Below are positions 20,144 to 22,666 of a stretch of 64,000 nucleotides of DNA, piece after piece. Numbering within the stretch: the stretch's first letter is position 1; each line of letters begins with the position of its first letter. Source of the DNA: Blastocatellia bacterium. GTDB lineage: Bacteria; Acidobacteriota; Blastocatellia; Pyrinomonadales; Pyrinomonadaceae. A program made the translations under genes and the position numbers. The notes under the pieces were generated by a model. That model had not been told where the DNA came from, ran no database searches, and saw nothing but the letters and a program-made list of their open reading frames with translations. The DNA is taken from contig PMSM01000006.1 of NCBI GenBank assembly GCA_003168335.1, positions 696,320 to 760,319 on the forward strand, in the 5' to 3' direction.

Positions 20144-21178
20144 TCACGCCGCGTACGCTGCGTAGACACTCTTCACCTTCTCCAGAAAATCGCGGCGGTC
20201 GACGAGGTAATGAAGCTTGACGGGTTCAGTAATGATTACCTCGGGCTCGGGCTGAACAATCTTGCCTTTGCGAGATTTGGAAGATTTCTTCGCGGCTTTC
20301 TTGGTTATCTTTTTTGGTTTCTTCCCAGGAAGAACCCGGTCGCTACCGCTCCCGGTTCTGTAACTCCACTCGTGCGTCGCGGCTAAATGATCGATTAGTT
20401 TCTCAAACACCTCACCCGGCTCCCGCTCAGTAATTCCAATCTGATCCAGATAGCCGCTGTAACGAAGACGGCGGATCAATTCCATCAGCGTCAGACGACC
20501 TTCGAGCGTCATCCCGCCGTGCGCATGCGAGCGGCTGACGAGATACTGAATTAACAGCGCTTCGCTGTAGAGGCTGGGCGCGAGAAACAAACGGGTGCTA
20601 TCGCGTTCCCAGCCTTCGCTCAATCGACTGGAACGACGCACGGCGCGCAACTCACCAAAGACTTCGTCCCATTTTGTTTTCGGCTCGCGACGTTCCAGGT
20701 AAATGCGCGTGGCGTCAAGCATCCAGCCCTCATCGTCGAGCTCAAGACTGTGACCCAGAGTGTCCAGCCATTGAAAAAACACCGCGCGCGAATCGGACTT
20801 CTTTTCCAACACCAGAAACTGTTCGTCCGCCTTCGGCAACTTTTTAAGGAGAACCCGGCGCGGGGCGTCGGTAGTCTTACCGCCTTCAATGCAGTAAGTA
20901 TCAAGCCGCGCCAGCCAACGCTTCGCAGATCCACAATACGGACAATGCGGACTCTTCTCTTCACTGTCGAAGTAAGGCCGGGTCGCGCCGCGGCTGGTCA
21001 GTTCTTCGATCGTGGGTGTGTGGCGTTTAACTTCAGAGAAGGCGGTGCGCGGCGCGAGGCCGAGTTGTTTGGTGAAGATGTCGAAGATGCACGCCAGACA
21101 AACCAGCGTCGTGTATTCAGTGATGGTTCCGGGCGGAAACTCACTGAGATCGAGTTCACGCTTGGCTTTGGGTGCCAT
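20144..21178 (-). CDS. Zinc-ribbon protein of unknown function with Lys-rich linker
   Basis: 344 residues, not recognised as a known family. The N-terminal 80 residues are helical; a CPYC knuckle (about residue 78) and a CIEG element hint at a zinc ribbon. Residues about 280-310 form a Lys/Ser/Arg-rich linker (KKPKKITKKAAKKSSKSRKG), followed by a conserved-looking C-terminal helix. Immediately before the linker, 20333-20356 is identical to an intergenic repeat elsewhere in the window and encodes TGSGSDRV. No signal or membrane segment; nucleic-acid binding is possible but unproven. Confidence 0.72.
   Translation of the reverse strand: MAPKAKRELDLSEFPPGTITEYTTLVCLACIFDIFTKQLGLAPRTAFSEVKRHTPTIEELTSRGATRPYFDSEEKSPHCPYCGSAKRWLARLDTYCIEGGKTTDAPRRVLLKKLPKADEQFLVLEKKSDSRAVFFQWLDTLGHSLELDDEGWMLDATRIYLERREPKTKWDEVFGELRAVRRSSRLSEGWERDSTRLFLAPSLYSEALLIQYLVSRSHAHGGMTLEGRLTLMELIRRLRYSGYLDQIGITEREPGEVFEKLIDHLAATHEWSYRTGSGSDRVLPGKKPKKITKKAAKKSSKSRKGKIVQPEPEVIITEPVKLHYLVDRRDFLEKVKSVYAAYAA
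20333..20356. repeat. Intergenic repeat fragment embedded in a coding region
   Basis: These 24 bases are identical to 42923-42946, the right arm of an intergenic inverted repeat. Here they lie inside the gene at 20144-21178, in frame, just before its Lys-rich linker. Confidence 0.7.
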
Positions 21179-21328
21179 ATGGCGGATTTAACCACAAAGA
21201 CACTAAGCCACAAAGCAAAAGCCCTTATTAGGTAGTGTCCTAATTTGAGTATTGCTGAAGTCACGCTCCGCTCTGCTCCTGCTTTGCTCCTTCTTGCCCC
21301 CTCCATCACCGGCTCCTTAAAGAGAAAC

Positions 21329-21358
21329 AAAAAGCGGCGAAGCCTTAGCCCCGCCGCT
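21329..21358 (-). terminator. Rho-independent terminator after 26-aa gene
   Basis: On the minus strand AGCGGCG (21358-21352) pairs with CGCCGCT (21339-21333) across a 12-base loop, followed by a T-run (21333-21329). It lies about 50 bases beyond the stop of the small membrane peptide. Confidence 0.6.
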
Positions 21359-21406
21359 GGCTGGGTTTCCCAGTCTTTCCTTTTAGCCTCTCTTGCGCGG
21401 TCGTGC

Positions 21407-21487
21407 TTATCGCCCACGGCGGTAGAAGTACCCGCCGCCGCCGCCAAAGATCAAGAGAAGTACGACGATCACGATTATTAGTGTCAT
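21407..21487 (-). CDS. Tiny hydrophobic glycine-rich membrane peptide (26 aa), DUF3309-like
   Basis: 26 residues: MTLIIVIVVLLLIF, then five glycines, YFYRRGR. One membrane helix followed by a Gly/Tyr/Arg tail is the pattern of DUF3309-type peptides found widely in bacteria, whose function is unknown. The ORF is too short for ordinary calling, the ribosome site is weak, and a terminator follows. It lies entirely within the TIR-bounded element, so it may travel with it. Confidence 0.5.
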   Translation of the reverse strand: MTLIIVIVVLLLIFGGGGGYFYRRGR

Positions 21488-21660
21488 GAAGCGGCTTATA
21501 TCACCGGGTTGAAAGGGGCGTCCGTGCGTTAGCACACATAACCCTGTTGAGCGGTTGAGGTACAAGCATCGTGCCACAGAACGGCGGTTTCGATTTCAGA
21601 TTAGGACACTACCCCCCTTATTACTTTGTGCTCTTTGTGTCTTTGTGTTGAAGACTTGAT

Positions 21661-22509
21661 TTAGGCAATCGCGACCAGGGCGGGCTCGCTGTCGGTATGG
21701 CCCAGAGCCAGATCGAGTTCAGCAGCGACGTCGCCGGTGCCCGTTGACAGCTTCTTGAAATCGAACAGGTTCGGATCCAACAGTTGTGACGGCTTCACAT
21801 TTCCCAGCGCGGTGAGCATCGAAGCGCGCACGTTCGGAATTTCTTTCTCGAGTTCCGCAATCAAATTCTTGATGCGCGCGCGTTTCAGGTTTGTTTGCGA
21901 GCCGCACAAGTCGCAGGGAATGATCGGGAATTGTTCCTGCGCGGCGAACTCGGCAATGTCACTCTCACGGCAATAAGCCAGCGGTCGAATGACCGTGTTA
22001 CGGCCGTCATCGGAACGCAGGACCGGCGGCATGGCCTTCACGCTGCCGACATAGAAGAGATTCAGCAGGAACGTCGCGATGATGTCGTCGGCGTGATGCC
22101 CCAGAGCAATTTTGGTACAGCCTTCCTCAACCGCGATGTTGTAGAGAATGCCGCGCCGCAGACGCGAACAGACTGAGCAATACGTCTTGCCCTCCGGCAC
22201 CAACCGCTTGACGACTGAATATGTGTCACGCTCGACGATGCGAAAGGGCACGCCGCGATCGCTCAGGTACCCGGGCAGAACGTCCGCCGGAAAACCGGGT
22301 TGTTTTTGATCGAGATTAACTGCGAGCAGTTCGAATCGCACCGGCGCGCGCCCTTGTACGTCGAGCAGCAGATCGAGCAGCGTGTAACTGTCTTTCCCTC
22401 CGGACAGACAGACCATTACTCGATCGCCGTCTTCGATCATGCGAAAGTCCGCGATCGCCTCGCCCATGCGGCGGAGAAGTCTGGTCTTGGCCTTGCTTTC
22501 TGTGTTCAT
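21661..22509 (-). CDS. ttcA: tRNA 2-thiocytidine(32) synthetase TtcA
   Basis: 282 residues from ATG 22509; an upstream TTG start (22551) is less likely. PP-loop [15 protein letters not shown] at about residue 36, CSVC (about 110) and CDLCGSQ (about 203) cysteine motifs for the iron-sulfur cluster, and HHADD (about 136) give the TtcA signature. The enzyme adenylates C32 of certain tRNAs and replaces its oxygen with sulfur. Transcribed alone, divergently from the M1 peptidase gene. Confidence 0.92.
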
Positions 22510-22666
22510 CGCTTGTTCATCAGCATGCCACGCGAGGACTGGTGCTGACAAGAAAGCGGTACTGCTTGACGGCGTACCAGAGTGGGACGAATAATGCGCG
22601 CGGTAGAAAAACTCTCGGACTCAAAAGTCCTCGCGTTTCCTGAACTAACCTCCCGAGGAGATTTCG

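Follow-up and report, generated by a model that had tools for sequence, protein, structure and literature searches.

A 383-bp transposase-less element with IS1-like ends carries a 26-residue peptide gene in a Blastocatellia bacterium

Can a gene of only 26 codons be moved around a bacterial genome as the cargo of an element that has no transposase of its own? The question is raised by a short stretch of DNA on contig PMSM01000006.1 of a Blastocatellia bacterium. The window, i.e. the whole stretch that was analysed, is 64,000 nucleotides long, and coordinates without a contig label refer to it. The element sits in a 482-base spacer, with a ttcA-like gene on one side and a 344-aa ORF on the other, in the following arrangement:

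20144-21178, minus strand: 344-aa ORF, family unassigned (ORF list, Pfam profile search)
21188-21207, plus strand: left arm of the older ACCACAAAG inverted repeat that the insertion interrupts (repeat comparison)
21222-21230, no strand: left target-site duplication CCCTTATTA (read from the sequence)
21231-21248, plus strand: left terminal inverted repeat GGTAGTGTCCTAATTTGA (repeat comparison; ends common to other elements)
21333-21358, minus strand: intrinsic terminator that closes the peptide gene, with a stem of 11 pairs followed by a T tail (terminator scan)
21407-21487, minus strand: passenger gene for a 26-aa DUF3309-like predicted membrane peptide, MTLIIVIVVLLLIFGGGGGYFYRRGR (sequence reading, profile searches)
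21495-21503, minus strand: extended -10-like box TGATATAAG, separated from the ATG by 7 bases (sequence reading; kept in G153, see below)
21519-21540, minus strand: Crp/Fnr-type palindromic operator TATGTGTGCTAACGCACGGACG (genome motif count)
21596-21613, minus strand: right terminal inverted repeat GGTAGTGTCCTAATCTGA (repeat comparison)
21614, no strand: one extra C at the junction of right end and duplication (read from the sequence)
21615-21623, no strand: right target-site duplication CCCTTATTA (read from the sequence, repeat comparison)
21633-21652, minus strand: right arm of the interrupted ACCACAAAG repeat (repeat comparison; hairpin of the joined flanks)
21661-22551, minus strand: ttcA-like gene (NF007972, E 6.7e-133)

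The element proper is 383 bp long (21231-21613), lacks a transposase, and is bounded by terminal inverted repeats and a 9-bp target duplication. A preliminary description of this DNA had placed it at 21231-21614, with 14-bp terminal inverted repeats and a 9-base direct repeat at both ends. The repeats are real, with 14 of 14 bases identical at the tips and 17 of 18 over 18 bp; they leave the left end where it was and move the right end to 21613. The direct repeat is likewise present on each side, with one extra C on the right that has no ready explanation, and for which we infer slippage in a run of C bases. By our own estimate, chance would yield a perfect 14-bp inverted repeat within 400 bp about 0.1 times per 64 kb, and the addition of a flanking 9-bp direct repeat lowers this expectation to about 1e-6. 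A chance origin of the ends is untenable because other copies of them have target duplications of their own. A transposase profile run against the 383 bp gave no match.

The insertion was also said to split an older inverted repeat, and this is borne out: the two ACCACAAAG arms match at 85%, and removal of the element with one copy of the duplication joins the flanks into a single hairpin (-25.1 kcal/mol). The ttcA-like region was matched in all six congeners searched. Four of these (G002, G003, G004 and G006) have the same gene pair, the neighbour being read by eye, with a spacer that is free of the element, while in G001 and G005 other sequence follows the ttcA-like region. A search for the two end families at these six loci (up to 3 mismatches) gave one unpaired match only, in G003 and outside the spacer. 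A base-exact empty site, which would read AAGCCCTTATTACTTTG, was not found in the six congeners, their spacers having diverged. In G002, G004 and G006 the spacer is made up of an inverted repeat of ACCACAA type whose arms enclose other sequence; since a ACCACAAAG-type repeat thus recurs at the same place behind ttcA in three congeners, the insertion site may be prone to repeats, or terminator-like, in its own right. No Rfam RNA was matched in the spacer at E 0.1.

The whole element is present in a single copy in this genome, but its ends are not: allowing up to 2 mismatches they occur at 56 sites, compared with 18 for the reversed pattern, and they bound both cargo elements and MITEs. Ends were paired into elements by target duplication, which gave four larger elements besides the 383-bp one:

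C2:68836-72306, 3,471 bp: perfect ends with the same 14 bp, 9-bp duplication, IS1-like transposase
C7:180970-182274, 1,305 bp: 8-bp duplication, transposase-less
C1:213199-213861, 663 bp: 8-bp duplication, DUF6438 protein, transposase-less
C14:682329-686337, 4,009 bp: 8-bp duplication, transposase-less

Only the C2 element among these five has a transposase. The MITEs with these ends fall into two sets: four of 120-153 bp whose 8-bp duplications are exact, and three of 98-152 bp in which the duplication has a mismatch. Of 20 stretches next to further ends, each up to 11.5 kb long, four contained paired candidates; two are counted here, and the two weak ones were left out (L141, with one duplication mismatch, and L147, of 41 bp). 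For most ends in those 20 stretches no mate was found.

A transposase gene with matching ends is present in open frame in the C2 element. Its 319-aa ORF (C2:69434-70390, in locus L033) matches DDE_Tnp_IS1 with 32.5 bits (Pfam cut-off 24.1) and stays below the equivalog cut-off of the NCBIfam IS1 model NF033558 (48.6 vs 100 bits), and it is therefore named IS1-like. All six aligned transposases match DDE_Tnp_IS1 at E 0.001, and D107, D178 and E246, the putative catalytic triad, are kept in all of them. Relatives at E 1e-20 or better occur in 12 of 60 genomes; the one in G005 is 78% identical to the C2 transposase, and its element likewise made a 9-bp duplication. The genome of the C2 element encodes another IS1-like transposase, in C9:58367-63142. 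The ends there are different, GGTAGTGCTCTATTAGTGTGTTGC; they match over 24 of 24 bases and are flanked by the 8-bp duplication CACCGTAG. Two further relatives (L160 and L163) have GGT-type ends with 8-bp duplications. No ends were found within about 1.5 kb for the other 18 of the 20 transposase loci, three of which are the C2, G005 and C9 elements, whose ends lie further out or beyond the locus. The IS1 family makes target duplications of 8-9 bp, and the same lengths are found here, 9 bp for the C2 and G005 elements and 8 bp for the others listed. IS1 elements are described in PMC10017437 as having two transposase ORFs, in contrast to the single ORF of the present transposase.

The transposase-bearing relatives hold further ORFs beyond the transposase and a companion gene. 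All ten transposase-bearing elements with these ends contain this companion ORF (about 105 aa), and neither of the two with other ends does. It also occurs, once as a partial copy, in four transposase-less elements (the C2 copy is L033:3887-4213). Two members scanned against Pfam gave no family, and 17 members scanned against NCBIfam gave one weak match, to TnpC. A confident structural model (pLDDT 91.8) has the order H-E-E-E-E-H, with no match in the PDB by sequence (E 0.1) or fold (E 0.001).

The ends extend well beyond this genus. The exact 18-mer occurs in at least 116 stretches of named genomes, from many phyla to judge by their titles; 80 loci among these stretches were taken, and all 80 were analysed. 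A paired end with a duplication is present in 23 of the 80 by our own criteria; 7 of these elements are MITE-sized, 8 measure 528-1,450 bp and lack a transposase, and 8 have one. Exact 8-bp duplications lie at the true position in 19 of the 80 listed loci, none reaching 9 bp, whereas the number at 897 wrong offsets averaged 0.087 and never exceeded 2, on which count a chance repeat is rejected. Cargo with a Pfam name in the eight transposase-less elements comprises a HigB-like toxin with an HTH partner (L248), a GNAT (L244) and a Fic protein (L233); the others have no Pfam-named cargo. In G051 these ends enclose 3,960 bp without a transposase, in which DUF4160, DUF2442 and SecB-like genes stand in a row (L091:3683-5088), possibly a toxin-antitoxin-chaperone set. 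A literature search for the end string GGTAGTGTCCTAA gave only matches that look unrelated (human genes, viruses), and topic searches on ISMhu11 and on captured genes in MITEs found nothing.

The interior of the 383-bp element reads as one unit on the minus strand, with a Crp-type operator, a -10-like box, the peptide gene and a terminator. Both the 26-residue gene and the terminator had been described before, and both are confirmed, at 21407-21487 and 21358-21333. The 26 codons sit within a 56-aa ORF that starts with GTG. The longer peptide was rejected, and the ATG taken as start, on a judgement by eye, because the upstream stretch recurs as an operator before other genes. As the -10-like box ends 7 bases 5' of this ATG, the mRNA is probably near-leaderless; a sigma-70 consensus scan of the region found no promoter. 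Two terminator-like matches were observed in the region scanned, with 0.9 expected. A near-identical terminator hairpin ends other small-peptide genes, with matches of 25-34 bp at C14:959080 (L044) in this genome and in a congener (G001:C169; L107:2449-3160). The peptides there are cysteine-rich and acidic, and one of the two genes adjoins a single transposon end.

The operator TATGTGTGCTAACGCACGGACG is a TGTG-N8-CAC dyad, which we take to be Crp/Fnr spacing. When up to 3 mismatches are allowed, a degenerate form of the motif occurs 17 times in this genome, compared with 2 for a reversed control. Some of these sites precede ORFs for response regulators, for a small membrane protein, or for a Crp-type regulator (C14:702231, with an HTH_Crp_2 domain); several are followed by no clear gene. 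The sites (L113-L129 and 21519-21540 of the window) include clusters at C12:197-213 kb and C14:700-714 kb. The 17 operator-like sites are likely to represent a Crp/Fnr-type regulon, and the passenger product is probably a single-span membrane peptide belonging to it.

By profile comparison the peptide corresponds to the first 25 of the 50 positions of DUF3309 (PF11752; E 0.0012), and with the second half of the profile absent it stays below the gathering cut-off (19.4 vs 22.3); unlike it, a full DUF3309 gene is found elsewhere in the genome. A peptide profile searched against 162 genomes gave matches at E 0.001 in 22 of them. Strong loci (E <1e-9) number 19 in 15 of the 162 genomes, own locus and genome counted, eight weaker rows having been left out (L185-L191 and L195, with E from 3e-6 upward). 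A scan of genome contigs with the peptide profile gave 123 pattern matches, none of which was confirmed. In five of six pairs of about 25 codons dN is lower than dS, the exception being the pair of the own peptide and G153 (dN 0.25, dS 0.22), and the homologue in G001 has no ATG at the aligned start.

Seventeen of the 19 peptide loci, the own locus being among the 19, do not lie between such ends when four end consensuses are paired over up to 2.5 kb; the remaining two lie between IS1-type ends of different families and are both short (383 and 261 bp). The Crp-type promoter was noticed at the same two, the own locus and G153, out of the 17 peptide loci with a readable upstream region.

G153 belongs to another genus. 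Operator, -10 box and peptide are all kept there, with 80% identity to the own unit over 149 columns, and the unit is bounded by GGTAGTGCTCCCCTAG and GGTATTGCTCCGTTAG, 261 bp apart. These ends differ by 2 and 1 mismatches from the 16-base consensus of the second, C9-type end family. The right arm was found by eye; when the 600 bases that follow were put through 300 mononucleotide shuffles, none matched the left arm as well; the target duplication is poor (5 of 8). Because the G153 unit lies between ends of a different family, two IS1-type end families seem to have packaged the promoter-peptide unit. The earlier suggestion that the peptide spreads by transposition gains from this second locus, but the single copy in this genome and the 17 loci without ends count against it, and the case stays circumstantial.

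The reading best in accord with these observations, at a probability of roughly 0.8, takes the 383-bp element for a cargo cassette of IS1 type, non-autonomous and of the kind called mobile insertion cassettes, that is moved in trans. That it is a non-autonomous element with a passenger gene, as proposed at the outset, is well supported by the lack of a transposase, the ends shared with the C2 transposon, and the spacer without it in the four of six congeners that have the same gene pair; movement in trans is suggested by the shared ends, by the 9-bp duplication common to both elements, and by the transposase gene that the genome contains. The IS1-like DDE transposase of the C2 element, or a relative of it, would have recognised the ends in trans and inserted the element, with a 9-bp stagger, into the repeat behind the ttcA-like gene. 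With its own Crp-type promoter retained, the passenger could be expressed wherever it landed, and its terminator would shield the neighbouring gene.

Among known systems, MIC231 belongs with IS231, of the IS4 family. It is likewise transposase-less, with IS-type ends and a passenger gene, whereas the ends here go with an IS1-like transposase and enclose the gene of a 26-aa peptide under its own Crp-type promoter. Mobile insertion cassettes are defined, in PMC3129680 and PMC5444012, by the absence of a transposase, IS ends, a passenger gene, and a transposase acting in trans. The present element has no internal transposase, its ends match those of the autonomous C2 element of the same genome, and its DUF3309-like passenger is unrelated to transposition, being found outside elements at 17 of 19 loci. 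Its partner elements resemble the transporter IS (tIS), a term used for the IS1 and IS1595 families in PMC3129680, PMC9330008 and PMC7986276, in holding passenger genes beside an IS1-like transposase; they differ in the single ORF below the NCBIfam IS1 cut-off and in the conserved companion protein, which has no assigned family. The element shares with MITEs its short length, non-autonomy, terminal repeats and target duplication, but MITEs, according to PMC5444012 and PMC7986276, carry no gene, and here there is one with promoter and terminator.

Two other accounts overlap with the cargo-cassette reading on the identity of the element and differ in its history. It could be a dead, MITE-like relic of one old insertion, in which the host uses the peptide and transposition no longer matters, as the single copy, the 17 peptide loci outside elements, and the decayed ends of G153 with no clear duplication would suggest. 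However, the repeats are still identical at 17 of 18 bases and the duplication is intact, so that the insertion is probably not very old; moreover, four congeners have the same gene pair without the element, and the genome contains an open-frame transposase gene with matching ends. A relic seems unlikely. Slightly less doubtful is an origin by internal deletion from a larger IS1-like transposon, in which the peptide gene was already a passenger among others and was not newly captured from the host. The extra ORFs of the transposase-bearing relatives and the existence of transposase-less 4-kb forms fit such a derivation, but no large peptide-bearing element was found with ends paired over up to 2.5 kb, the two loci between ends being those of 383 and 261 bp.

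The remaining alternative would deny the element altogether, and take the repeats for chance or for a regulatory (REP-like) inverted repeat. Its position inside another inverted repeat and the fact that the whole was found once are in keeping with that idea, which is nevertheless scarcely credible given the many unrelated inserts, with duplications of 8-9 bp, that lie between these ends, and the companion gene common to all ten transposase-bearing elements that have them.

On the reading as a cassette moved in trans, a broader picture can be drawn tentatively. IS1-like ends might repeatedly package single complete transcription units into trans-moved cassettes, comparable to the Pack-type elements of plants; the peptide unit would then be a recurrent capture, by two end families in two genera, and the GGTAGTGTCCTAAT-ended elements an undescribed, cross-phylum group with its own companion protein. 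With a whole regulated gene placed between transposon ends, bacteria could move small genes one at a time, even those for peptides too short for most gene callers. Since the ends, the likely source of transposase and the sister cassettes (a toxin-antitoxin pair, Fic, GNAT and a DUF6438 protein) can all be named, trans-mobilisation and gene capture by IS1-like elements are directly testable.
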